From positions 1 to 33,800 of the forward strand of contig JAUIHO010000026.1 in the NCBI GenBank assembly GCA_030432035.1: DNA of 33,800 nucleotides. Direction: 5' to 3'. Within the stretch, counting starts at the first letter, position 1. Each line of letters opens with the position of its first letter. This document shows positions 7,099 to 23,327 of the stretch, in pieces. Both the position numbers and the translations under genes were made by a program. Origin of the DNA: Phycisphaerae bacterium (GTDB taxonomy: Bacteria > Planctomycetota > Phycisphaerae > UBA1845 > UTPLA1). Under the pieces are notes generated by a model. It did no database searches. It was not told the origin of the DNA and was given only the letters and a program-made list of their open reading frames with translations.

Positions 7099-7839
7099 AT
7101 GCTCGCCTTCGACTTCGCCGCACTACTCACCACTGAGAACGCCATCGCGCTACTTACGCTGACGCTGATGGAAATCGTGCTCGGCATCGACAACATCGTA
7201 TTCATCTCGGTCTTAACCGACCGACTTCCCGAGGGCGATCAGCCGAAGGCTCGCCGGACCGGGCTAATGCTTGCCATGGTCATGCGAATCTTGCTGCTGC
7301 TCGGCATCAGTTGGATCGCAAGCGCCAAAGCCGAGCTATTTAATGTGCTCGGCCATCCGATTTCCGCGCGCGATCTGATCATGCTCGCCGGCGGCTTGTT
7401 CCTCATCGCCAAAGCCACCAAAGAGATTCATAAGAAAATCGAAGAGCCCGACGAAAAGGAACAACTTAAAAAGACACGCGGCACCATGTCGGCCGTTTTG
7501 ATTCAGATCATTCTGATCGACCTGGTCTTCTCGCTCGACTCGGTCATTACCGCTGTCGGTATGGCCAAGTCGATCATCGTCATGGTGTTGGCCGTCGTCA
7601 TATCCATCGGCGTCATGCTGGCCGCCGCCGAATCGATCAGCGGCTTCGTCAATCGCAACCCGACGGTCAAAATGCTTGCACTATCGTTCCTAATTCTCAT
7701 CGGCGTCATGCTCGTCGCCGATGGTCTGGGCCAGCACATTCCCAAAGGTTACATCTACTTCGCGATGGCGTTTTCGTTGGGGGTCGAGATGCTCAACATG
7801 CGCGTGCGGAAGGTGACGTCACAATCGACGAACAGCTAG
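7099..7839 (+). CDS. TerC-family integral membrane protein
   Basis: 246 residues with about seven hydrophobic helices. The two family hallmarks are present: LMEIVLGIDNIVFISVL near residue 22, and IDLVFSLDSVITAVGMAK in the second half. Both carry the buried Asp residues of the LysE/TerC superfamily. Members include TerC and the manganese exporter Alx/MntX; relatives act in metal-ion homeostasis or in metallating exported proteins. The charged middle (KKIEEPDEKEQLKKTRG) is the usual cytoplasmic loop. No other ter genes are nearby, so tellurite resistance is not implied and manganese efflux is at least as likely. It converges on the methyltransferase gene with only 35 bases between them. Confidence 0.9.
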   Translation: MLAFDFAALLTTENAIALLTLTLMEIVLGIDNIVFISVLTDRLPEGDQPKARRTGLMLAMVMRILLLLGISWIASAKAELFNVLGHPISARDLIMLAGGLFLIAKATKEIHKKIEEPDEKEQLKKTRGTMSAVLIQIILIDLVFSLDSVITAVGMAKSIIVMVLAVVISIGVMLAAAESISGFVNRNPTVKMLALSFLILIGVMLVADGLGQHIPKGYIYFAMAFSLGVEMLNMRVRKVTSQSTNS

Positions 7840-10016: not shown

Positions 10017-11540
10017 TTATTCAGCTTTTTCACTCCCACCATACCGACCGCCCTCGCCCGGTGCAGGCGCCGCCTTCGGCTTAAAGGGGCGCGGCCAGAA
10101 GCTGTAGGTCTCTTTGACCTCTTCCGTACCTTCGCGCGGTCGGATGTGAGCGAAGAAGCTTTCCTGAGCTTTGTCGTAAACGATTTCGCCGTTGACGATT
10201 GTCCATTGCACTTGCGTGAAGAAATCGAGCAACGGTCCGTCGGTGATGGCAAGGTCGGCGTCTTTGCCGACTTCGATTGAACCGACGCGGTCGTCGATGC
10301 CCAACGCACGCGCCGCCGCCAGCGTGACGGATTCGATCGCCGCCGGTTCGGGCAAACCGCCGCGCACCGCGTAAGCCGCTTCCATCGCGAGGTGTTGCAT
10401 ATCGCGCCCCCCCAAGCCGACGAGACTAATGCCCGACGACGACGGCGTAACCGCAACGTCGACGCCATGCTGATAAAGGATGGCGGCATTTTCGATGTTG
10501 TTGCCGCTTTCCTGCACGAGATACGGATTGGCGCCGACTTGGCGGCGCGGCGAAACGATGACTTTCACACCCGCGCGACCCAAACGATCCGCCACGATCC
10601 AACCTTCGGATGCGCCGCGAATTACCAGATCAAAACCGTACTGCGTGGCGAGATCGGCCAGTTCGATGAGCTGCGTCTTTTCTTCCGCATAGACGAGGGC
10701 CGCAGCTTCCTTCTTCAGCAACTTGTAGGCAGCTTGGTTTTCCTTGGCGACCGATTCGTCGGGCTTCTCGGCGTCTTCATCGCCTTCGGCCTTGGCCTTC
10801 TCGTATTGTTCGACATCGCGGAGATATTGACGCACCTTTTCGAGCGATTCGCGAAACTCGCGCTGCTCGGCGGTGCGGCCGTAGCGAACAGAAACGAACA
10901 ACTCGTTGCGTAGCGGCAAGTTTTCCACAACGCCGTACGACGCTTTGGCCGCGCTGGTGCGCGACGAGACCGTCGTGATGCCGGCAGTGTTTGCCAAACG
11001 CAACGTGGTGCTGAATACGTTGGTCGTGTTTTCTGCCGGCTCGCGCCCGACGATGCCGCGCGCTTCGCACGCCACGAGGCCGGGGTAAATGTGCATGCCG
11101 GATACATCGAGCACTTCGGTGCCTTCGGGCATTTCCACCTGCGAACCGATCGCTTCGATCACGCCGTCCTTACACAAAATCGTCACGTGACGCAGGTCGG
11201 CCCCCGAAACGGTATGCACGATGCCGCCGGTGATGGCGAGGTAGTCCGGCCCCTTGTCTTCGGGCTCGGATGCGGGTTGGCTTTCCGCTTCGTCGGCAGG
11301 TTGGCTGGACGGCTGGCTGGTCGGCTGGCTCGTCGACTCATCGCCCTTGTCCTTTTTGCCTTTGCGACCGCGCTTGCCGCGGCGCTTTTTCCGTTCCTTC
11401 TTTTCCGGCTTGTCGGGTTGCGTCGTTACAACTTCATCGTCATTCGACGGGTCGGTCGTCGGCGCGGCCTGCACCGCAACCCCGCTCGCCAACATGGCGA
11501 AGATCAACCCGGCGATGAAATATGTCAGCAGGTGTTTCAT
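10017..11540 (-). CDS. Exported amidohydrolase-like protein, metal site lost (gene A, last in operon)
   Basis: 507 residues with a signal peptide (MKHLLTYFIAGLIFAMLASGVAVQA). After it comes a Lys/Arg-rich segment (KKERKKRRGKRGRKGKKDKG) and a Ser-Gln-Pro repeat (TSQPTSQPSSQP). The rest follows the amidohydrolase composite fold: an N-terminal beta-sandwich piece, a degraded barrel, and the C-terminal GSIEVGKDADLAITDGPLLD with IVNGEIVYDK. The HxH metal pair after the first strand is Glu-Ala-Arg (LVACEARG), and the downstream His and Asp ligands are also missing (VTPSSS where TDAP is usual). It is unlikely to be a metal hydrolase. I start at the ATG at 11540, 4 bases after the upstream gene's stop. 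The frame is open for 34 more codons, but those lie in the upstream gene and carry no signal peptide. Confidence 0.87.
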   Translation of the reverse strand: MKHLLTYFIAGLIFAMLASGVAVQAAPTTDPSNDDEVVTTQPDKPEKKERKKRRGKRGRKGKKDKGDESTSQPTSQPSSQPADEAESQPASEPEDKGPDYLAITGGIVHTVSGADLRHVTILCKDGVIEAIGSQVEMPEGTEVLDVSGMHIYPGLVACEARGIVGREPAENTTNVFSTTLRLANTAGITTVSSRTSAAKASYGVVENLPLRNELFVSVRYGRTAEQREFRESLEKVRQYLRDVEQYEKAKAEGDEDAEKPDESVAKENQAAYKLLKKEAAALVYAEEKTQLIELADLATQYGFDLVIRGASEGWIVADRLGRAGVKVIVSPRRQVGANPYLVQESGNNIENAAILYQHGVDVAVTPSSSGISLVGLGGRDMQHLAMEAAYAVRGGLPEPAAIESVTLAAARALGIDDRVGSIEVGKDADLAITDGPLLDFFTQVQWTIVNGEIVYDKAQESFFAHIRPREGTEEVKETYSFWPRPFKPKAAPAPGEGGRYGGSEKAE

Positions 11541-11544
11541 GTGC

Positions 11545-12960
11545 CTACCGTTTGTCCTTTTCCTCTGTGGCGCGATCGAACACGACCTTGCCACCGACCA
11601 CCACCATCTGCACCTTGGCAAACGGGTCGAGCGGATCGCCATCGAGCAAAACCACGTCGGCAGCTTTTTCTTTTTCCAACGAGCCGTACTGCTTTTCGAG
11701 GCCCAGATACTGCGCCGGTACCAACGTGAGCGCCTTCAATGCGTCTTCGCGTTTCAACCCGGCACGGGTCAGCAGCGCGACGCGCTCGCGAATCAGTTCG
11801 TGTTCGCGCACGTTATCGTCCAGCGGATAGAAGCCGACCGTGCAGCCTTCTTCGATCAACTCGCGCGCCAAGTTGTACGGATTCACCGTCAACGGCATTT
11901 GCGGGAGCAACGGCTTGAGCATGACCGTCGCATCGGCCCCGCCGATGAGATCATGTTCGATGATATTGTGTAGGTCGTCGTAACCGCGCGAGGCAAAGGC
12001 GTAGCGCTGTGCAAACTCAAAGCCGTCGATGGCTTCGACAAAGTGCAAGACGTCCGACGCGCGAGCAAACTCGACCAGCGCAACGATGCCTTCTTCCATT
12101 TTCAGAAGCTTGACAGGCGCTTTGAGTTCATCCTTGATCTCAAACTTCTTTTCTTCCTTCTTCTCTTCTTTTTTCTCGCTCGGCTTGCTGGCGGGTTGCG
12201 ACGTCGGTTTTTTGTCTTTGCCGTCGCCTTTATCTTTGCCGCCTTTGTCGTCCGGCTTCTTTTGGTCTTTCTTTTCTTCCTTGGGCTTAGATGCGGCTTC
12301 TTTTTTCTTCTCTTCCGCTTCCTTCTCTGCCTTTTCCTTGGCTTCTTTTTCAGCCTTAATGGCCTTTTCGGCTTCTTTCAAAACGCCGCGCAACGCATCT
12401 TTTTCATTCGGCGGTCGCCCAAACGTAATACGCACCAACCCTTCGTCGCGCACGCCCTCGCCGGCCTTGGAACCGTGCGTCGGCACGACCAACGCCTGAC
12501 CAGGCAGGCCGCTACCATTGGGCAGCACGCCCAACAGCGTGTAACCGGCCTTCAATAAGTCGTGATACGTCTCATCCTCCGGCGGTTCGAACTCGTCTTT
12601 CACGAGAAAGTTCGACTTGTTACCGCGGTTGTTTGGCAGTTGTTGACCGATCATCGTGCGCGGATTGATCATGCCGGGCATGGCCGTCAGCTTGGTCGCA
12701 TCGATCACGATGCTATCCGACGGGTAGTCGACGTTTTTGCCGACCGCCTCGATCTTGCCGTCCACGATCACGATGCTCGCGTCGTCGATCTCTTCGCCGC
12801 CGACCGTCACCGCTTTCTTCGTCTTGATCACGGTATAACGATCGCCCGCCGCCTGCACCGTCGCCGTCAACACAAAGGTCGACACGATGAGAGCAGCAAC
12901 CAGCGTCGTACGCGCCGCCGTTAGACGTTTTGCAACCTGTCCGAGATAGATGCTATTCAT
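11545..12960 (-). CDS. Exported amidohydrolase-like protein, metal site lost (gene B)
   Basis: 471 residues. The signal peptide has a long basic n-region (MNSIYLGQVAKRLTAARTTLVAALIV and onward, ending VQAAG). It shares the family's start (ITVGG-type strand, DGKIEAVGKNVDYP) and end (GSLEKEKAADVVLLDGDPLDPFAKVQMVVVGGKVVFDR). The HxH pair is replaced: MINPRTMIGQ has Arg and Met at the two His positions. Between about residues 190 and 275 is a Lys/Glu-rich low-complexity block (for example KAEKEAKEKAEKEAEEKKKE) that also holds TSQPASKPSEKK. This block sits where gene C has an ordinary helical hairpin. The start codon overlaps the stop of gene C as ATGA at 12960-12957. Confidence 0.88.
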   Translation of the reverse strand: MNSIYLGQVAKRLTAARTTLVAALIVSTFVLTATVQAAGDRYTVIKTKKAVTVGGEEIDDASIVIVDGKIEAVGKNVDYPSDSIVIDATKLTAMPGMINPRTMIGQQLPNNRGNKSNFLVKDEFEPPEDETYHDLLKAGYTLLGVLPNGSGLPGQALVVPTHGSKAGEGVRDEGLVRITFGRPPNEKDALRGVLKEAEKAIKAEKEAKEKAEKEAEEKKKEAASKPKEEKKDQKKPDDKGGKDKGDGKDKKPTSQPASKPSEKKEEKKEEKKFEIKDELKAPVKLLKMEEGIVALVEFARASDVLHFVEAIDGFEFAQRYAFASRGYDDLHNIIEHDLIGGADATVMLKPLLPQMPLTVNPYNLARELIEEGCTVGFYPLDDNVREHELIRERVALLTRAGLKREDALKALTLVPAQYLGLEKQYGSLEKEKAADVVLLDGDPLDPFAKVQMVVVGGKVVFDRATEEKDKR

Positions 12961-14234
12961 CGGGTTCGGCGTTTAACCTCCACGTCGTAGGCGATGCGGC
13001 CATCGACGAATGTCTTTTTGCAAACCGAGCGCGGATCGATCGGGCTGCCGGTCCACAAACCGAAGTCCGCATCCTTACCCGCTTCCAGCGAGCCCACGCG
13101 ATCGATGATTCCCAACGACTCGGCCGGGATGCGCGTAATACCTTTAATCGCCGCGTAGTGATCGTTCCAACCATACCAACAGGCCATCGTCGCCTGATAC
13201 GGCAAATCTTCCTGCGGAATCACCGGCGCGTCGGTGTTGATGCCCAGCCGCTTAATGCCCTGTTCGGCGAAGCGCGCGGCACAACCGTTGATCGTGCGAT
13301 CGCGCCTGTCGAAGTGAAACACGCGCGGGCCGACGATGGCGTACATGTCGCGCTCTTTTATGAGCGACGCCAACTTGTACGAATCGAACGTCGAGTGATC
13401 TGTCACCACATCGAGACCGAAGTGATCGCGCAACATCGTGATCGTGGTCATATAGACCTGATAAATCTGCGTGTGCACCGATACCGGGAATTGTCCGTCG
13501 AATAGATCGCGGAAGTCGCTCCACACGATATCGAAGGTCGGCGGCTCGGGGATTTCACCCTTCTGATACGCCGTCCAACCGTCGTGATATAGCTTGGCCT
13601 TTTCAAGCGTTTGCCGCAGGTTCCAATTCATGAATCGGCGACCCACGCGATACCAATAGCGCTCGGGGTTACCGGCCTGGGCTATCTTGAGCGAGCCCGG
13701 CGCTTTGATAACCATTTCGTCGGTGCTGTTACCAAACGTCTTGGTCGTCGTGCCGAAGCCGGACATGTTGTTACCCGAGCCGGGGATCAACAACACGCTC
13801 GTTATGCCGCCGGAGAGGCAGTTTTCCAGATTCTCGTTCCGCGGCGTGACGACATCGACCGTTCGCAAGCCCGGATTGGTGAGATACACGCCGTCGTTCA
13901 AATCAAACAGCGAGCCGGCGATATGGTTATGGCAATCCACCAGACCCGGCAGAATCCAACCATCGCCGTGATCGATCACGTCGAAGCCTTCGGGTATTTC
14001 CACCTTGCTTTGCTTGCCGACGGCGACAATCTTGCCATCCGCAATGAGCATCACGCCGTTGTTGATGACCGTATCATCGACATCCATCGTGATGATCTTG
14101 GCGGCTTTGATCGCCACCTTCGGTCGCGCCGCCGCGTCACCATCCGCCGGCACCGACGCCTGCGCAATGGCCGTCAGCATCAACGACGCAATCAACATCC
14201 CTGCAACCCACGATCGCCGAACGTATGCGTTCAT
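12957..14234 (-). CDS. Exported amidohydrolase with intact metal site (gene C)
   Basis: 425 residues with a signal peptide (MNAYVRRSWVAGMLIASLMLTAIAQA). It is the one member of the operon with the whole expected ligand set: H102 and H104 (LVDCHNHIAG), H254 (FPVSVHTQ), H280 (VVTDHSTF) and D335 (GINTDAPVIP). It belongs with the imidazolonepropionase-like or dipeptidase-like exported amidohydrolases, which hydrolyse C-N bonds of cyclic amides or peptides; the substrate is unknown. The C-terminal GSLEAGKDADFGLWTGSPIDP and VDGRIAYD strands are typical. The hairpin KAKLYHDGWTAYQKGEIPEP is unexpanded, unlike in its neighbours. GAGGAGG lies 7 bases before the ATG. The start overlaps the stop of gene D by four bases (ATGA). 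Confidence 0.92.
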   Translation of the reverse strand: MNAYVRRSWVAGMLIASLMLTAIAQASVPADGDAAARPKVAIKAAKIITMDVDDTVINNGVMLIADGKIVAVGKQSKVEIPEGFDVIDHGDGWILPGLVDCHNHIAGSLFDLNDGVYLTNPGLRTVDVVTPRNENLENCLSGGITSVLLIPGSGNNMSGFGTTTKTFGNSTDEMVIKAPGSLKIAQAGNPERYWYRVGRRFMNWNLRQTLEKAKLYHDGWTAYQKGEIPEPPTFDIVWSDFRDLFDGQFPVSVHTQIYQVYMTTITMLRDHFGLDVVTDHSTFDSYKLASLIKERDMYAIVGPRVFHFDRRDRTINGCAARFAEQGIKRLGINTDAPVIPQEDLPYQATMACWYGWNDHYAAIKGITRIPAESLGIIDRVGSLEAGKDADFGLWTGSPIDPRSVCKKTFVDGRIAYDVEVKRRTR

Positions 14235-17020
14235 CGAGCGACCTCCTCACCATTAATAAAGACGCGCTTCAGCGCCGTGCCCGGCATCAACGGCGGACCG
14301 TCGAAGATCAACAGATCGCCACGGCAACCGCGCTTCAGCGTTCCCACATACTCATCCATTTTCAACATTGACGCGGCATTGCCCGTCAGCGCTTGCAGTG
14401 CAGCCGTCGGATCCATGCCGTAACGCGTGTCGTACATCGCTCGTAGCGGTAGATGCCGCGCGCCGTCTTCGGCATTGCTTTGATAGGCAACGTCGATACC
14501 CGCCGCCGTTAGTTCGGCAGCTTCGTAATACTCGCGTTTGTCAACTTCCAACACCGGTGCCGTGTGCAAAATAACGCCCACGTCATGCTTCGCGAGCGTG
14601 TCTTTGATCTTGTGCGCTTCGTCGGCATTGATCAGCACGAACGGCACCTTGTACTCATTCTTGAGCACCGGCAGCACCGCTTCGATCGCCTTGTCGTCAT
14701 CGATGTCGAGCATCATGGCGATATCGCCCGCGAGCAATTCGCGATACGGCTCCAGCGATTCATCTTTGGGCGGCGGTTGCGGACCTTCGGTATCTTTCGA
14801 TTTGCGGCGACGCTTGATCTTGATCGTGGGCACGGCGCGTTCGGTACGCGTCGCTTCCATCTCGAGACTGAAACGCCCGACGATGAAATTCCCGATGATA
14901 TGATCTTCCTTATCGACCGTCGCTTCGACGGTCGGCTTGCCCATCGGCCCTTCGACATCGAGCGTGATCTTAAGCTGCTTATCTTTGTACGTGCCGCTGA
15001 CAGGAATTTCTTCGCCGCCGCCAAAGAACGTCGCGAAGCTACCTTCAACTTTGCCGTCTTCGTGTTTGAGCTTCGCCGTAAACTTCTGCGGTTCGGGCAG
15101 CGGCGAGCCGGAGACTTCGCCCTCCCACGTGCCGGTGATGTCATCGGCCTTGGGCTTCTCAACGACGACGTTGTCTTTTTTCTCTTCTTTTTCGGCGTCG
15201 GCCTTTTTCTTTTCGTCGTCGTCTTTCGACTGATACTCGGCGAGATCCTTGGCGTACTTCTTCCAAGCCTCGTCGTATGCCTTTGCTTTCTTCAGTTGGC
15301 CTTTGAGTCGTTCGACCGCGTCTTTCGGTTTCTGACCGCGCAACGGGAAGTAGATGCCCGCCGTTTCGCGCACGATCAATTCGTCGGGCGTATCACCCGC
15401 CGTGTGCACTGCCGTGAGCCGCGCGCCGCCGTTGCCCGCGCGATAAGCACGCGTCATGACCGTCGTCACGCCGGCTTCGGCCACGCGTGCAAACTCAGGA
15501 CCGGCGTCGTACAAAATGCTACCGAGCGACACATCGGTCCCGGCACCAACCTGTTCACCTTCCAGGCCAAGATGGCCATGTGCGTCGATGAAACCCGGCG
15601 TGAGATACGCATCGCTGCCCGCATCGATCACTTGGGCATACGGACCCGCCGCCGCCGTCATACCGGCGCTCACGACCTTGCCATCTTCAACGTACAAAGC
15701 ACCCGGCGAGACCCAACGATCACCCATCCACACGTGGCCCGCCTTGACCAGCAAGCCGCCGTGCGTTTCTTTGTGCTGGCCAAACACCTGCGTACCGCCG
15801 ACGAAAACTTCGCGAACCCGCGCCGTCGGTAAAAGCGGCTTATCGCCGAGAATCACGAAGTCGGCATCGTGCCCCTTCGTCAGCGCCCCCACCCGTTCGG
15901 CCACGCCCAAGATGCGTGCGGCGTCAGAAGTAATCGCGGCCAACGCCTTGCGTTCGCTCAAACCCGCATCGCGCAGCGCACCCAGATAGAACAGCAAGTC
16001 GCGATGCGGCGCGTCCTGCGGTGGCGCGATGGCCAACGGCACGTCGTGCAACGCTTCCGGAATCGTTAGCGTTTCGGGCAGTGCATCTTCGTTGCCGCCC
16101 ATGTTCTCGAACAAGCGATACGGGTTACTCGGAAACTGAAAGATCACGGGCACGCGATACTCGGCGATCAGTTCCGCATTGCGAAACGCTTCGCGACCGC
16201 CGACCAATACGGCGGCGTGCTTTTGATCGTCGGCAAAGGCAATGCCCTGTTCGATATCGATATCGCGATCCGCAACGAGGCGCAGCGGCACTTTGCGTTG
16301 CAGCAGCGCCGCCAGTTCGGCATGCACCGCGTCGCGTTCGTCGTCTTGCGGCAGCGCTTGCTTGGCCCAATCAAACATCTCGCGCAATTCGAGGATTTGC
16401 CCCATGCGCGAGTTCGGTCGCTGTACATCCGACGGCTTGATGTCGTTATCCGACGACGGCGGCACCAACCAGTTTTGCTTATTCGGCGGATCGAAGGCGC
16501 GCTCGCCGAGATTGACCGTTAAATCGATCGCGTCACGCAAGATGCGTTCGCTGCGAGGTCCGGCTAGTTTCACCACGCCGCCTTGGCCGCTAATAAGCCG
16601 ATGCTCGCCCGGGCTTAGGTAGGCCGTCGTCACGCCGCCAGCCAACACCTTGGTGTAATCCGCAAAGCTGTTGTACGCATCGACGGCGCGATACTGCGGG
16701 CCGACCGTCTCTTCGCCGCGTTGGTTTGGCACCAAATGCGAATGGGCCAACACGAACGCCGGCACGATCACATCGTCGCTGCGGTCGATCACGTCGATAA
16801 ACGGCGGCAGCTTCAGGTCGCTACCGACCGCAACGACCTTGCCGTCTTGGATCAGCATCGTCGCGTTATCGATATACCACGCATCGCCCGCCGCCATCGT
16901 GTAGATGCGGCCCGCGCGAATCGCGTAGCTATCGGCGGCCTCGGCCTGCGCGACCGACCCCATCGTCGCCAGCAGCGCGACAAACGTATAAATCATGTTT
17001 GCAATCGTTCGTCGTCTCAT
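14231..17020 (-). CDS. Exported two-domain amidohydrolase-like fusion protein (gene D)
   Basis: 929 residues with a signal peptide (MRRRTIANMIYTFVALLATMGSVAQA). Two amidohydrolase-like units lie in tandem. The first, to about residue 425, has H93-S-H95 (VLAHSHLVPN) and ends GALTKGHDADFVILGDKPLLP. The second has H481-G-H483 (FIDAHGHLGLEG) and ends GTLKRGCRGDLLIFDGPPLMPG. Both keep HxH, but the later His and Asp ligands are not evident in either (LRLVADRDIDIEQ in the first, LAGDIAMMLDIDDD in the second). The second unit carries a Lys/Glu-rich stretch (about 580-620) and then an inserted beta-rich module (about 625-735, starting DITGTWEGEVSGSP) resembling small lipocalin-like or immunoglobulin-like sheets. 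The ATG is 6 bases after the stop of gene E. Confidence 0.9.
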   Translation of the reverse strand: MRRRTIANMIYTFVALLATMGSVAQAEAADSYAIRAGRIYTMAAGDAWYIDNATMLIQDGKVVAVGSDLKLPPFIDVIDRSDDVIVPAFVLAHSHLVPNQRGEETVGPQYRAVDAYNSFADYTKVLAGGVTTAYLSPGEHRLISGQGGVVKLAGPRSERILRDAIDLTVNLGERAFDPPNKQNWLVPPSSDNDIKPSDVQRPNSRMGQILELREMFDWAKQALPQDDERDAVHAELAALLQRKVPLRLVADRDIDIEQGIAFADDQKHAAVLVGGREAFRNAELIAEYRVPVIFQFPSNPYRLFENMGGNEDALPETLTIPEALHDVPLAIAPPQDAPHRDLLFYLGALRDAGLSERKALAAITSDAARILGVAERVGALTKGHDADFVILGDKPLLPTARVREVFVGGTQVFGQHKETHGGLLVKAGHVWMGDRWVSPGALYVEDGKVVSAGMTAAAGPYAQVIDAGSDAYLTPGFIDAHGHLGLEGEQVGAGTDVSLGSILYDAGPEFARVAEAGVTTVMTRAYRAGNGGARLTAVHTAGDTPDELIVRETAGIYFPLRGQKPKDAVERLKGQLKKAKAYDEAWKKYAKDLAEYQSKDDDEKKKADAEKEEKKDNVVVEKPKADDITGTWEGEVSGSPLPEPQKFTAKLKHEDGKVEGSFATFFGGGEEIPVSGTYKDKQLKITLDVEGPMGKPTVEATVDKEDHIIGNFIVGRFSLEMEATRTERAVPTIKIKRRRKSKDTEGPQPPPKDESLEPYRELLAGDIAMMLDIDDDKAIEAVLPVLKNEYKVPFVLINADEAHKIKDTLAKHDVGVILHTAPVLEVDKREYYEAAELTAAGIDVAYQSNAEDGARHLPLRAMYDTRYGMDPTAALQALTGNAASMLKMDEYVGTLKRGCRGDLLIFDGPPLMPGTALKRVFINGEEVAR

Positions 17021-17026
17021 GGCGTC

Positions 17027-18442
17027 TTACTGATCCGTCTTGGGTTCTTGGTACTCGCCCTTGTGGACTTCCGTGTGGCCTTCTTCAACCGGCTCGCTGA
17101 CCGGAGCCGTGCTCGGGCCAAGCTCGTCTTCCGGCGCGGCGAACAGGCGATTTAGGCGAATGTCTTCCGCCTTGTCGTACACCTTTTCCCCCTGCACGAA
17201 GCCGAGTTCGACCCACGTCGTCATATCCAGCGGGTCGCCGCTAAGCACGAGTACATTGGCGTCTTTGCCTTTTTCAAGCGAGCCCAGACGATCGCCCAAG
17301 CCCAGCATTTCCGCCGGCCAGAGCGTGATCGACTTGAGCGCGTGGTCGCGCGAAACACCTTCGCGAACGCAGCGTGCCGCCTGATACCAAAGATACCGTT
17401 CGCCCAGCGTGCTACCCCACTGCCGCTGCAAGGCAAACTTCAAACCCGCGTCGTCGATCACCTTAGGAACAAAGGTCTCTTCCTCTTCGCCCGTCAGTGC
17501 GTCGGCTTCGGTATGTACCAAGTTGCCATCGAGCACGACCGGTCGCCCGGCTTCTTTCAACGCATCGACGGCCTTGAATGTTTCGCTACCGAGCACCAAC
17601 ACGCTCTGATCGAGAAAGCCAAACTGTTTCGCCGTTCGAATGGCCGCAGGCACATCCATCGCCGCGCCGCAGTAGATGAAGTTTCGCAACTTGCCCTGAC
17701 TGAGCATGAGCAGGTTGCGATTCTTATCCGGAATATCCTTGGGCTCGATCAGTTCCTTGCCCTTTTCGCGCGCTTCGTCAGGCGGAACCGACAAGTCTTT
17801 TTCATCTTCGCGCAACTTGTCTTCGTATTTCTTTTCTGCGAGTTGGCCCATCTCTTCGTCGAGCTTGCGAAATGCTTCGCGAAACTCGGCCATCTGCCGC
17901 ATGCGGTCGTAGCCGGTTTTCGGCGTCACGCTCAGCTTCATCGCAACGTCGGGCGCCGTCGTCATTTGCTCGGGCGTTAGTCCGATCGGATGCACGACGC
18001 GCGTCATGCCGTCGATGATCGTGTTGTTACCCGGGCTAACGTGAATCGACAGCACACCGTCGCGCAGCGAATCTTCGAAGAACAACTGCGACGGATCGAT
18101 CGCGTCGTAGACATTCAGAAACGGCGTCACGCCCGGCGATTCATTCGGCACGTCCAGACCACGCCACGTGTGGGCGTCGATCATGCCGGGGAAGATCACC
18201 TTGCCTTCGCAGTCGATCACTTTCGCATCGAAAGGTGCGTCGACGCTTTCGCCGACGGCTTCGATGCGACCGTTCTTGATCAACACGCTGCCCTTTTCGA
18301 TCGGCTCACCGTTAACCGGAATGATCTTGCCGTTCTCCAGCACCACGGTTTGGGCCTGCGCCACCGATGCGAACGCGACAATGGCCGCGCTCAACATCAG
18401 CGTCATGGTTGCAAAATGATGCAAACGTCGTTGGTTCATCAT
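17027..18442 (-). CDS. Exported amidohydrolase-like protein, metal site incomplete (gene E)
   Basis: 471 residues from the ATG at 18442, with a signal peptide (MMNQRRLHHFATMTLMLSAAIVAFASVAQA). The HxH pair is His-Thr-Trp (GMIDAHTWRGL), so the second ligand is gone; no later metal His/Asp set is evident. The C-terminal GSLEKGKDANVLVLSGDPLD and FVQGEKVYDKA strands are typical of the fold. A charged helical segment (about 195-250, rich in Lys, Glu and Asp) again sits at the hairpin position. A GTG at 18454 would overlap the stop of gene F as GTGA; I prefer the ATG because AAGTGAG lies 7 bases before it. The last 35 residues form an acidic tail (GPSTAPVSEPVEEGHTEVHK). Confidence 0.87.
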   Translation of the reverse strand: MMNQRRLHHFATMTLMLSAAIVAFASVAQAQTVVLENGKIIPVNGEPIEKGSVLIKNGRIEAVGESVDAPFDAKVIDCEGKVIFPGMIDAHTWRGLDVPNESPGVTPFLNVYDAIDPSQLFFEDSLRDGVLSIHVSPGNNTIIDGMTRVVHPIGLTPEQMTTAPDVAMKLSVTPKTGYDRMRQMAEFREAFRKLDEEMGQLAEKKYEDKLREDEKDLSVPPDEAREKGKELIEPKDIPDKNRNLLMLSQGKLRNFIYCGAAMDVPAAIRTAKQFGFLDQSVLVLGSETFKAVDALKEAGRPVVLDGNLVHTEADALTGEEEETFVPKVIDDAGLKFALQRQWGSTLGERYLWYQAARCVREGVSRDHALKSITLWPAEMLGLGDRLGSLEKGKDANVLVLSGDPLDMTTWVELGFVQGEKVYDKAEDIRLNRLFAAPEDELGPSTAPVSEPVEEGHTEVHKGEYQEPKTDQ

Positions 18443-18450
18443 GCCTATGC

Positions 18451-19716
18451 TCACTTATCGATTCGCCCGCTTACCAGCATGCCGCCGGCAAAGACCAATT
18501 TCACTTTACTGGTTGCTTCAAACGGTTCGCCCGACCACACCACCAAATCGGCGCCGCGCCCGGCGGCCAGCGTGCCGGCCTGACCGTCAATTCCCAAGAT
18601 TTGTGCGGGCGTCGTCGTCGTCGCCGCCAACACTTCCTTTCGCGTTAGCCCGCAACGTCGGGCGTACGCGCCCATGCGACCGAGGCCGCCTTCGCCCTGC
18701 AATTCGCAGGCGCTCAGAGCCACCGTTAGACCCGCGTCGAGCAGTTCGCGCGGCGCGCTGAGACGAAAGCGATCAGCTTCACCCGCTTGCGCTCGCCAAC
18801 CGGACGGATAATCGAAAATCGGGCCGTAAATCACCGGCACGTTCGCGGCTTTCAACTCGTCGATGCAGCGATACGCTTCGGTGCCTTCTTCCAACACAAA
18901 CGTCAGATTGAATTCGCGCGCGACGCGCAGCGCCGTGAGAATATCGTTTTGTGCCCGCGCCTGAATGCGCAGCGGCTTCTCGCCTTTCACCACGTCGATC
19001 AAAATCGGTAGCGACTCGGCCGACGGCGAACCTTCGCCGCTCGTGCCGGGCGTTTCACCGCGATTTACCATCTGTGCGTCGTGAAACGCCTTACGCAAGA
19101 CCCAAGTCAGCCCCATGCGCGTGGTCGGTCGGCGCGTGAGGAACGACGTGCCGCTGAAGCGCGAAGGCGTGCGATTGAAGCTGGCCTTCACGATCGGCTC
19201 GCGCCCGATCGTCGCCTTAATCGACGACGCCGGATCGATAATGCGATGCGCTCGCGGCCCTGCCGTGCGCACGATCGCGCCTTGGCCACCGATGACGCTC
19301 GCGGCATCGGGCGAGATATACACCATCGTGACGCCTTGCGCCGCCAAGTTAGCAAAACCAGGGTCATGCAGATCGACGGTATCGAGAGCGCGCGTTTCGG
19401 GCACGACCTCGCTGCGATGTTCCGCATCGTGAAAACCCAATCGATACCCGACCGTCGCGGCGGCATCGATGAGGCCGGCTGTGATCGTGGCTTCTGGCAT
19501 ATCGACGACGCGTACGTCATCGATGGCCGGTAGCGATTCGCCCACGGCGTCGATCTTGCCGTCGCGAATCATGATCGCGCCGGGCTCAAACACTTCGTCG
19601 GGCGAGACGTAAACCTTACCGACCTTCAACAGCGTCGGCCCCGACTCGTCGGCATGCACAACCGTTGCAAAGACCAGCGGCAAGCACCACACCATCAGCA
19701 ACCATCGACGCATCAT
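18451..19716 (-). CDS. Exported amidohydrolase-like protein, metal site lost (gene F)
   Basis: 421 residues with a signal peptide (MMRRWLLMVWCLPLVFATVVHA). The HxH motif has become Ala-Ala-Thr (GLIDAAATVGYRL). The ring of the barrel is still recognisable: QGVTMVYISPDAASVIGGQGA, GEKPLRIQARAQNDILTALRVA, and GTLAAGRGADLVVWSGEPFEATSKVKLVFAGG at the end. There is no Lys/Glu-rich expansion, so this is one of the compact members. It starts at ATG 19716, which overlaps the stop of gene G by four bases; a second ATG follows at once, and CGGAG lies a few bases upstream. Probably a non-catalytic paralogue. Confidence 0.88.
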   Translation of the reverse strand: MMRRWLLMVWCLPLVFATVVHADESGPTLLKVGKVYVSPDEVFEPGAIMIRDGKIDAVGESLPAIDDVRVVDMPEATITAGLIDAAATVGYRLGFHDAEHRSEVVPETRALDTVDLHDPGFANLAAQGVTMVYISPDAASVIGGQGAIVRTAGPRAHRIIDPASSIKATIGREPIVKASFNRTPSRFSGTSFLTRRPTTRMGLTWVLRKAFHDAQMVNRGETPGTSGEGSPSAESLPILIDVVKGEKPLRIQARAQNDILTALRVAREFNLTFVLEEGTEAYRCIDELKAANVPVIYGPIFDYPSGWRAQAGEADRFRLSAPRELLDAGLTVALSACELQGEGGLGRMGAYARRCGLTRKEVLAATTTTPAQILGIDGQAGTLAAGRGADLVVWSGEPFEATSKVKLVFAGGMLVSGRIDK

Positions 19717-20873
19717 GATTCTCCGCCTTCCTTGCTGCCGTCGTGCGACGCCAATGCTTCGCTCACGTGCACCCGTTCGCCACCGATGAAGACCGCCTGA
19801 ATACGCGATCGCAAATCGAGCGGATCGCCGCTGTACAAAATGAAATCCGCATCCTTGCCGGGCGTTAAAGAACCGACGCGTTTTGCAACGCCCGCGATTT
19901 CCGCAGGCACCGTCGTCAGTGATGCGGCCACTGCCGAACGCGGCGCGCCCTGCTTCATCACCATCGCCGCGCCAACGCGGAGCAGCGCCGACTGATAGCG
20001 TGGGGCGCTACTCGTCAACGCAAACGGAATATCGTTCGAAGCAAGAATATGAGGATTGCGCGTGTATCGGCGGGGATCGCTGAATTCGTAGGTGCCCAAC
20101 ACGATCGGTTGGCCGAGCGACTTGGCATCATCCAACCGTTCGGCGGCTTGATTGGCATATAGCGCGACGCATTTCACGCCTTGCTCTTCGGCGAATTGCG
20201 CCAACGTGCTGACGCCCTCAGGCGTCGCGACTTCCACCAACGCGTGCGATTCGCCGCGTGCCCACCGGGCAAAGGCCGACTTGTCGTTCTTATTCTTCTC
20301 TGCAGCCGCGATCATCTGTCGCAAGTTGTAAAGTCCACCCGTCAAGCTGGTGGGCGTGCGCCGCAGGTTAAACGCTTCGCGCGTCAGCGACAGCTTCAGC
20401 GGGCCTTCACCCAATATGCGTTCTTTGCTCGGCCCGCCCGTTTTGACGACGACCGTGCGACCACCAACCAAATGCGTCGATGCCGGTGCGATGATGACCG
20501 TCGTGATACCGGCGGCAGCGGCTTCTTTGAAATCGTGATGATCTGGATCGAAGAGTTCTTTGGTTGCCGCTTGGGGCTGAACCGAATCGGCTTGCTCGAA
20601 GTTGCGACCATTCGTGCCGAGCGTCGTGTGCACATCGACCAAACCCGGGCCGATCATCTGGTCGCTGCGATCCACCACGGCCACGCCGTTCGGCACGCTC
20701 ACGTCTTGGCCAATCGCACCGATCTTGCCGTCGATCACCAACAGCGTGATATCTTTTTCAATCGACCCATCCGGCTTGAGATAGCCCGCCGCTTTGATGG
20801 CGTAGCTATCGCCGGCAAGCGCGACCGAGGCCGTTAACAACAGCGCGACCGTGAAGACCGTTCGCTTATGCAT
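19713..20873 (-). CDS. Exported amidohydrolase-like protein, metal site lost (gene G)
   Basis: 386 residues with a signal peptide (MHKRTVFTVALLLTASVALAG). This is the shortest member. HxH has become His-Thr-Thr (GLVDVHTTLGT); the later part keeps GITTVIIAPASTHLVGGRTVVV, HALVEVATPEGVSTLAQFA and the C-terminal GSLTPGKDADFILYSGDPLDLRSRIQAVFIGGERV. The ATG at 20873 is chosen because a perfect AAGGAGG lies 6 bases before it, inside the last codons of gene H, and the two genes share one base (TGATG). A GTG at 20876 is less well spaced. The coupling predicts that G is translated by ribosomes finishing H. Confidence 0.89.
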   Translation of the reverse strand: MHKRTVFTVALLLTASVALAGDSYAIKAAGYLKPDGSIEKDITLLVIDGKIGAIGQDVSVPNGVAVVDRSDQMIGPGLVDVHTTLGTNGRNFEQADSVQPQAATKELFDPDHHDFKEAAAAGITTVIIAPASTHLVGGRTVVVKTGGPSKERILGEGPLKLSLTREAFNLRRTPTSLTGGLYNLRQMIAAAEKNKNDKSAFARWARGESHALVEVATPEGVSTLAQFAEEQGVKCVALYANQAAERLDDAKSLGQPIVLGTYEFSDPRRYTRNPHILASNDIPFALTSSAPRYQSALLRVGAAMVMKQGAPRSAVAASLTTVPAEIAGVAKRVGSLTPGKDADFILYSGDPLDLRSRIQAVFIGGERVHVSEALASHDGSKEGGES

Positions 20874-22510
20874 CACTGGCCTCCTTCGCGCGAATACACT
20901 TCGACACCATCGACGAATACCTTTTCAACCACGCTGTCCGGTGCCAGCGGGTGACCGCTCCACAGAACGACATCGGCCTTCTTCCCTTTTTCGAGGCTGC
21001 CGATCTCGTCGGCCATCTTGCAACTGCGTGCGGCTTCAATCGTGATCGCGCGAATAGCGGCGTCTTCGCTAAGCCCGCCGCTCACGGCCAGTGCCGCGTT
21101 TTGCGTGAGATACTGAGCGCCCACGCCATTGCCTTGGCGACCGCTGGACAGCGCCAATAGCGAAACGTCGGCATGTTCCACAGCGGCGGCACTTTGCAAA
21201 TTCAAATCTCGCAAGTGGCTGCGATCGTTGCCGCCTGCCGAACCGATGACTTGCCCGACGATTACACCGACCTTCGCTTCGGCAACGTTTTCAGCAACAG
21301 GCGCCAAGCCCGAAGCACCGACCACCGTTGCATCCAAGTAATAAGTATCGATGAGTTTTAGAATGTGCAGTACATCACCGGGACGATGCACTTCAAATCG
21401 AATGGGGAGTTCGCGCTTGATGGCGCGCATGAGAACTTCTGACACCGGGTCGTAAGCGGGCTTCTCCGGCTTCTTGAGTTCGTCGTCGTCTTTCTTGTCG
21501 CCGTCTTTTTTCTCTTTGGCGTCGTCTTTCTTTTCTTTGGGTTCGTCGGATGCCCAATCGGGGTCGGCCCACGGGTCGTACTCGACGTGTTCGTTTCCGA
21601 TGTCGTCACCGGGAACGTGGCCCTCTTCCTTCTTCTCACCGAGCGATTGCAACCACTCGACGAACTCGTCTTCGGTGATCTCGTCGCAACAGCGAATACC
21701 GACGCACGTGTGACCGTGATGGTCGTGCTCGTGATCGTGCTCGGGATGCCGGCCGCGCCCGCGTCGTCCGCGACCGCGTCGCCCCTTGGCTTTCTTTTCC
21801 GCCTTCTTTTCTTTTTCTTTGTCGTCGTCTTTGGTGAGTTTGACGGTCTTCCCGTCTTTGAGCGCTTTCTTATAGTCTTCCAGCTTCTCGTCGTACTCGT
21901 CGAGCGCGTCGCGATACGCGGCGGCAGTTTCCAACAATTCGCGTAACGCTTTCAGCTCAGCCAAACGCGACACCGGCCCTTTGGTATCCAATCCAACTTG
22001 CGCGACGAGGCAAACATCATCCGTTACGCTGCCTGTCAGATCGTTGAGGTCCTTCAACCGCACAAACGCAGCCGTGCCGGAAAAACCGCCAAACGCCGGC
22101 GGCGCGACGCAAATCCCGGTCACGCCCATGCGCAGCGCATCGGCAAAGGCATCCTTATCGTAAATATTGAGTGCGTCCGTCGCGCGCGACGTCGCAATAG
22201 GTGCGATCGGTCCACCGGGGTTTAGCCCCAACGTCGACCACGAATCGATCAGACCGGCGGTTACGTATTTGCCTTCGGCTTCGATCAGATTGAGGCCCGG
22301 CATCGGCGGCACGGCTTGCCCGCTCGATTCGCGCACGTCGGCAATTTTGCCGCCGCGCATGATGACGACACCATTCTCAATCGTTCCTGCATCCGACGAC
22401 GTTAGAACCGTGGCACCGCGAATGGCAGTAATACCGCCACCTTGTGCCAAAACGCTCGTGGTGGTAGCCAACAGCACCCACCCGAGAATTACGCGACAAA
22501 TCACACGCAT
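20873..22510 (-). CDS. Exported amidohydrolase-like protein with His-rich insert, metal site lost (gene H, first in operon)
   Basis: 545 residues from the ATG at 22510, which gives a proper signal peptide (MRVICRVILGWVLLATTTSVLAQ). The frame is open for 50 further codons, but these have no such feature. HxH has become Trp-Ser-Thr (GLIDSWSTLGL). From about residue 200 a charged block (KDDDKEKEKKAEKKAKGRRG) leads into a Arg-Gly repeat, then a His-rich stretch (HPEHDHEHDHHGH, about 254-267), then CVGIRCC and an acidic segment. The fold closes with GSLEKGKKADVVLWSGHPLAP and VFVDGVEVY. The His/Cys stretch could bind metal although the catalytic pair is gone. It heads the operon. Confidence 0.87.
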   Translation of the reverse strand: MRVICRVILGWVLLATTTSVLAQGGGITAIRGATVLTSSDAGTIENGVVIMRGGKIADVRESSGQAVPPMPGLNLIEAEGKYVTAGLIDSWSTLGLNPGGPIAPIATSRATDALNIYDKDAFADALRMGVTGICVAPPAFGGFSGTAAFVRLKDLNDLTGSVTDDVCLVAQVGLDTKGPVSRLAELKALRELLETAAAYRDALDEYDEKLEDYKKALKDGKTVKLTKDDDKEKEKKAEKKAKGRRGRGRRGRGRHPEHDHEHDHHGHTCVGIRCCDEITEDEFVEWLQSLGEKKEEGHVPGDDIGNEHVEYDPWADPDWASDEPKEKKDDAKEKKDGDKKDDDELKKPEKPAYDPVSEVLMRAIKRELPIRFEVHRPGDVLHILKLIDTYYLDATVVGASGLAPVAENVAEAKVGVIVGQVIGSAGGNDRSHLRDLNLQSAAAVEHADVSLLALSSGRQGNGVGAQYLTQNAALAVSGGLSEDAAIRAITIEAARSCKMADEIGSLEKGKKADVVLWSGHPLAPDSVVEKVFVDGVEVYSREGGQ

Positions 22511-22895
22511 GGTCAGCGCATCCCGTCCAATAAGACTGCAATAACAAGAATACTTCAGCTTTCCCCATCTTCTGAGAGGCGGGCGATTCACTGGGTGAAT
22601 CGGACTTTGAGTATAACGGCTAACGGTTTCGGTCATGCCATCCTCACGCGCGATTCCCAAAATATTGTCGGTTTAACGCCGTCGGCGGCTTAGTAGCGAT
22701 CGAACGATTGCCTCAGATCATGTTGCGTTTTACCTGACCGGCGAATCACAGCGCAGGCCGCACAGTTCACTCCGATAATCCGTCAGTCACGTCCGGTAGC
22801 GAAACCGCAGCCCGGCATCGGAGCGCATCAAATCGTAAATATAGAACACACACGAACGAACGGGCACGAATAACCGCTGGGGGGATTCCACGTTT
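22511..22895. other. Divergent intergenic region between the amidohydrolase operon and the PilZ gene
   Basis: 385 bases with no supportable gene. It holds the candidate leftward promoter and operator-like inverted repeat described separately (22584-22615). A G-rich ribosome binding site, GGGGGGA, stands just before the PilZ ATG. I could not pick out a convincing promoter for the PilZ gene. Confidence 0.5.
22584..22615 (-). promoter_or_regulatory. Candidate promoter -10 box and operator-like inverted repeat of the amidohydrolase operon
   Basis: Read leftward, TATACT at 22615-22610 matches the sigma-70 -10 box at five of six positions; the -35 is poor. Directly downstream is a perfect inverted repeat, CGATTCAC at 22584-22591 with GTGAATCG at 22595-22602, separated by three bases. 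A regulator bound here would cover the expected transcription start. The link to the operon is inferred from position: the gene H start lies about 75 bases further on. Confidence 0.4.
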
Positions 22896-23327
22896 ATGGC
22901 CTCAATCGCTGTCACCGCACACCCATTAGCCGAAGTTCTGCAACGAGAGGTGGTCCGCTATGTCGAAACAGCTAAACCGTTTCGACAACTGCGCTCCACC
23001 ATGAACCGCAGAGGAACCAAGCGCCACGATCGTGAATGCCCGATATTTGTCGCCGCTTTGGCCCACGAAGCGACAAAAGACCGCGCGGCGACATTGCGCA
23101 ACATCTCGCGCGACGGTCTCGGCTTCCACTGCGACGCCGGGTTGAAGCCCGGCAGCCTCATTAGCGTGAAGCTGTTCTGGTCCGACCCGCATAGCCACCG
23201 AATACCCGCGCGGGTGAAACACTGTGAAATCGAGCAGGAAGGCTTCTTCGTGGGGGCCGAGTTCGTGATCACAGACGCCGAAGCGTGCAAGCTGATCGAA
23301 CGGCACCACGCCCGCTGGTACGGCTAA
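22896..23327 (+). CDS. PilZ-domain protein (cyclic di-GMP receptor candidate)
   Basis: 143 residues. The two PilZ motifs for binding cyclic di-GMP are present: RxxxR as R39-G-T-K-R43 and [DN]xSxxG as N69-I-S-R-D-G74. The beta-barrel continues to FFVGAEFVITDAE. The first 35 residues are an N-terminal helix with no recognised domain. Such small PilZ proteins usually act as cyclic di-GMP adaptors in motility, secretion or polysaccharide control; the partner cannot be told here. GGGGGGA before the ATG is a likely ribosome binding site. It stands alone, with a strong terminator behind it. Confidence 0.9.
   Translation: MASIAVTAHPLAEVLQREVVRYVETAKPFRQLRSTMNRRGTKRHDRECPIFVAALAHEATKDRAATLRNISRDGLGFHCDAGLKPGSLISVKLFWSDPHSHRIPARVKHCEIEQEGFFVGAEFVITDAEACKLIERHHARWYG

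Follow-up and report, generated by a model that had tools for sequence, protein, structure and literature searches.

A histidine- and cysteine-bearing insert, a candidate metal-binding loop, in a noncatalytic amidohydrolase-fold subunit of a planctomycete operon

Results

Gene H heads a conserved amidohydrolase operon and has lost its metal ligands

The first gene of a conserved planctomycete operon, gene H, encodes an amidohydrolase-fold protein that lacks the metal ligands of the family and carries a charged insert with a dense His run and three Cys residues. The His/Cys part of the insert is kept in a sister species, and in other lineages a His/Cys element occurs in subunit F in place of H. 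The reading to which we give about even weight is that the insert is a metal-binding loop, probably for zinc, that acts locally on a noncatalytic subunit.

The window (the whole stretch of DNA analyzed, 33,800 nucleotides) holds eight co-directional genes on the minus strand, from 22660 to 10017, in the transcription order H, G, F, E, D, C, B, A. As the original prediction had it, H comes first; its stop overlaps the start of G. All eight genes match amidohydrolase families in Pfam. Gene ends, here and in the genomes compared, are those of the open reading frames, taken without start calling.

20873..22660, minus strand: gene H, amidohydrolase fold without catalytic ligands (open reading frame; Pfam Amidohydro_1, PF01979, 2e-11; AlphaFold model matches 3ooq)
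19713..20876, minus strand: gene G, amidohydrolase paralogue without full ligands
18451..19716, minus strand: gene F, paralogue; no His/Cys insert here, one present in families f4, f8, and f16
17027..18454, minus strand: gene E, paralogue
14231..17020, minus strand: gene D, double-length paralogue with HxH in each half, beta-5 and beta-6 His missing
12957..14234, minus strand: gene C, the sole paralogue in the window with all five ligand residues (H102, H104, H254, H280, and D335)
11545..12960, minus strand: gene B, paralogue
10017..11642, minus strand: gene A, paralogue

Several planctomycete families share the gene order HGFEDCBA (window 10017-22660; L102-L109 and L122-L133), with F and H of distant genomes assigned by gene order and similarity. 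No description of a planctomycete eight-gene amidohydrolase operon was found in the literature searched. Scanning named genomes with H retrieved a single close relative, CP030884.1 (Planctomycetaceae bacterium isolate ECT2AJA-110-A), which is the nearest named record, alongside remote matches; searches of further classes added H matches in G232, G299, and G209. Four bacterial genomes have been sequenced from the marine diatom culture ECT2AJA-110, and the culture's planctomycete was placed in family UTPLA1 of the class Phycisphaerae (PMC12718438).

Among the genes looked for in the window, no metal-transport gene lies within the operon. A TerC-family membrane protein gene (PF03741) at 7099-7839 is on the opposite strand about 2 kb past gene A and was not accepted as linked to the operon. 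On the other side of the operon, a PilZ-domain gene at 22896-23327 is divergent from H. Two variations elsewhere may be recorded: subunit E of genome G001 (L102:26-1609) has a tail with several His residues and a long Arg-rich stretch (EHNHEIHK...RRGRREGRGRRPRRPRD), and G500 (L132:9450-13241) has two adjacent C-like genes, both with the five ligand residues complete.

H belongs to the amidohydrolase superfamily by sequence (Pfam as above; 3ooq by phmmer) and by structure. Its AlphaFold model, made from an alignment of 16 sequences, has a confident barrel, and the top Foldseek matches are chains of 3ooq, the Thermotoga maritima amidohydrolase that is the nearest solved structure. H resembles 3ooq in fold and overall sequence (C-terminal part, phmmer 2e-27; Foldseek 7e-28, TM score of 0.83 on the target). 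What sets it apart from 3ooq is the loss of the ligand residues and the 127-residue His/Cys insert. A catalytically competent amidohydrolase would carry HxH, a beta-5 His, a beta-6 His, and a beta-8 Asp; at the five ligand positions H has W, T, E, G, and L, in contrast to H, H, H, H, and D in subunit C. The predicted replacement of HxH by WST is thus confirmed in the alignment of the two subunits. The true start of H is probably M51 (ATG at 22510-22508), and the sequence that follows resembles a signal peptide when read by eye, which suggests that H is probably exported to the periplasm.

A charged insert carries the His run and the Cys cluster

The features of H that bear on its role are the following.

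22442..22510, minus strand: signal-peptide-like N terminus MRVICRVILGWVLLATTTSVLAQ from M51 (translation read by eye)
22232..22240, minus strand: WST, residues 141 to 143, in place of the metal-binding HxH (alignment A1 with subunit C, H102-x-H104)
21476..21856, minus strand: charged insert, residues 269 to 395 (127 residues), between a long helix and strand IRFEV (orthologue alignment; AlphaFold)
21749..21784, minus strand: Arg/Gly-rich stretch GRRGRGRRGRGR, directly before the His run
21710..21748, minus strand: His run HPEHDHEHDHHGH, residues 305 to 317, inside the charged insert
21686..21706, minus strand: Cys cluster CVGIRCC, residues 319 to 325, inside the charged insert
21644..21673, minus strand: short helix EDEFVEWLQS with a hydrophobic x-x-W-L motif, the sole helix predicted in mid-insert

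The His-rich stretch followed by clustered cysteines, predicted to lie in a charged insert of H, is therefore present. Chance can be ruled out as the origin of the run, since shuffling the protein (from M51 onward) 20,000 times did not once place seven His residues within any 14 residues. At the DNA level, a search for HxHxHxHH with one mismatch permitted gave a single hit in the 5.1-Mb assembly, and the reversed pattern, as a control, gave none. An assembly error is likewise ruled out, as the separately deposited chromosome CP030884 encodes the same 21 residues with five synonymous differences. H thus has a dense His run in a probably exported protein, as looked for in metal-storage proteins and metallochaperones, with export judged by eye. 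It does not have the two CxxC knuckles of a zinc ribbon, only CxxxxCC.

The insert is modeled as disordered (pLDDT mostly 28 to 44) except for the EFVEWLQ helix, from an alignment that is shallow at 16 sequences, and a disordered loop gives no reliable prediction of metal binding. In the periplasm, the Cys residues may form disulfides in place of binding metal. The x-x-W-L motif recurs in the inserts of six other genomes (G001, G007, G012, G338, G278, and G232), and by inspection several inserts have either a W-L helix or another short hydrophobic stretch; such a recurring element would suit docking. Arg-rich stretches are found at about the position of GRRGRGRRGRGR in family f1, genus g218, and some f4 inserts.

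The His/Cys element is conserved in a sister species, and other clusters occur in H proteins of further lineages

The H protein of CP030884 is 94% identical to that of the window. Over the 21 codons of HPEHDHEHDHHGHTCVGIRCC, the sister species (G002) differs by five synonymous changes and no amino acid changes. Across the whole insert, pN is 0.018 and pS is 0.44, compared with a pN of 0.03 to 0.04 in the barrel domains. The insert is as constrained as the barrel domains, which indicates selection on it within the genus, as measured in one species pair; constraint on the His/Cys part is indistinguishable from that on the rest of the insert.

Conservation of the His run in orthologues had been proposed as a check on the metal role. 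It holds for the sister species, but the exact motif was found in just two species. Different clusters, of His or of His with Cys, are seen in H of two further f1 genomes, of g218 (a genus outside the class of the window), and of G312. The G001 insert, which keeps four His and no Cys residues, contains AHDHDDH; that of G007 contains HEGHDH, followed by CPQHPWVIVVCCC and CEHDH; and that of G012 has one His and one Cys. Three genomes of g218 have HxHDTPFxxWLxDTLGWxCDCGLP...HDH in common, and the G312 insert reads CEQCG...HHH. No significant match to a Pfam zinc-finger domain was obtained for the g218 and G312 H proteins tested. On a tree of H barrels built without the insert, the clusters fall at three places, which fits either three separate gains or one early origin followed by several losses.

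These data bear on whether the His run is neutral low-complexity drift, in which His, Asp, and Glu codons, being one base apart, would yield such a run by chance in a charged linker. Most relatives do have inserts that are rich in Lys, Glu, Asp, and Pro, variable in length, and devoid of His and Cys, as drift would predict. However, the absence of nonsynonymous changes beside five synonymous ones over the 21 codons is not what drift would leave, the Cys residues are not explained by drift among His, Asp, and Glu codons, and similar elements recur in H or F of other lineages. We consider neutral drift quite improbable.

In other lineages, subunit F carries a His/Cys element

The H inserts of families f4, f8, and f16 are free of Cys and contain no more than two His residues; in the same operons, F has a His- and Cys-rich insert of about 70 to 150 residues just past the strand expected to carry HxH. 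In most f8 genomes, the F insert contains an invariant, zinc-ribbon-like CCGSxC..R...H..G..C..CGFP, with five Cys and one His invariant in nine aligned inserts; examples are the F genes at L124:10313-11908, L131:12992-14467, and L122:3535-5091, in which the insert occupies the position of the lost HxH strand. Two CxxC-like knuckles, as in zinc ribbons, are present in F across species of f8 and in f16, the latter being one sequence judged by inspection. A profile of the f8 F inserts found its best match in the eL37 ribosomal protein, at the zinc ribbon (E value of 0.001), a weak match with a sensible pattern. The two have C-x2-C ... R ... H ... C-x2-C-G-[FY]-P in common; unlike eL37, the f8 module is an insert in a probably exported pseudo-amidohydrolase, and H of the window does not show the pattern. 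The f8, f16, and f4 F inserts tested gave no significant match to a Pfam zinc-finger domain.

Where the cluster is in H (f1, g218, and G312), the F loop is just 12 to 16 residues long. We counted a cluster when His plus Cys numbered at least 4, a threshold of our own choosing, in the 36 operons for which both the H and F genes were read. The cluster was in F alone in 24/36, in H alone in 6/36, in neither in 6/36, and in both in none (0/36). Some f4 inserts barely reach the threshold (G032, three Cys and no His; G074, two of each). The Fisher value of 5e-4 for this pattern is overstated, because relatives share history and only about four independent events underlie the count: the F insert arose about once, and H clusters sit at the three tree positions noted above. 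The six operons without a cluster in either subunit indicate that it is not needed for the system.

Metal binding is likely, and delivery to subunit C is not favored

The His/Cys conservation in the sister species, the H clusters in other lineages, and the zinc-ribbon-like module of F make it likely, as our best reading, that the insert of H binds metal, with zinc probable. In this respect the metal role originally proposed for H gains in plausibility; its second part, supply to subunit C, finds no such support. Under that proposal, H would capture periplasmic metal and pass it to the empty site of C. The complete site is in C alone, H and C share one operon, and there are periplasmic zinc proteins with His-rich loops, PA4063 among them (PMC8561739). 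A cluster serving as metallochaperone should, however, be conserved wherever the client metalloenzyme is present, and all five ligand residues of C are retained even when H and F both lack a cluster (G171, G316, G500, G419, and G012). Together with the detection of the exact motif in just two species, and with the finding that the His-rich loop of ZrgA is dispensable in vivo (PMC9820375), this leads us to regard delivery to C as improbable.

PA4063 and ZrgA, which take part in periplasmic zinc trafficking, resemble H in that an exported protein, probably so for H, bears a His-rich loop that is disordered when metal is absent (PMC8561739 and PMC9820375). They differ in having another fold and in being part of zinc transport systems, in contrast to the H operon with its lack of a transporter gene. 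The loop of ZrgA takes up several zinc ions, most of them weakly held, and is nonessential in vivo (PMC9820375); such a loop can thus bind metal without being required.

A purely structural role for the arm is also to be considered. A single zinc bound by the His and Cys residues, or a disulfide, would fold the W-L helix and attach the arm to another subunit, and no metal would be exchangeable. The W-L helix adjoins the Cys cluster, the g218 version forms one conserved core around W-L, and zinc-ribbon-like modules such as that of F are usually structural in other proteins. Seven His residues in a 13-residue run are nevertheless more than one structural site needs, and the arm is modeled as disordered, albeit from a shallow alignment. 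We judge this explanation possible but somewhat unlikely.

Discussion

The preferred explanation, a locally acting metal-binding loop, can be laid out as follows. H would be a noncatalytic amidohydrolase-fold subunit, probably exported and probably in complex with its operon partners, of which C alone has a complete metal site. From the H barrel, a flexible charged arm would extend that presents the His run, the three Cys residues, and the short W-L helix; it would most likely bind zinc or another late transition metal and act locally. It might be a small clip, closed by metal, through which the arm docks to a neighboring subunit, or a low-affinity metal reservoir beside C, the single metalloenzyme subunit. 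In other lineages, the element in F would take the place of that in H. In our assessment, H most likely serves as a scaffold subunit of an exported complex and bears a zinc clip or reservoir that works locally.

There is precedent for an amidohydrolase-fold scaffold, in that inactive dihydroorotase-like subunits scaffold aspartate transcarbamoylase. Like H, these are metal-ligand-free partners of an active enzyme; unlike H, they are cytoplasmic, comprise one pseudo-subunit, and have no His/Cys insert.

The H operon offers a testable example of dead enzyme copies retained for a noncatalytic job. Should the His/Cys arm prove to bind metal, the operon would be a system for the assembly or metalation of an active subunit by its inactive relatives, and the H-or-F switch provides natural variants for comparison. 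Tentatively, and as a prospect we hold doubtful, the operon may encode an exported complex, found throughout the phylum, that combines one active subunit with several lacking ligands. In it, a zinc-binding element would have moved between H and F, never residing in both, and pseudoenzymes would now handle metal, or support metal-held assembly, on behalf of their active paralogue.
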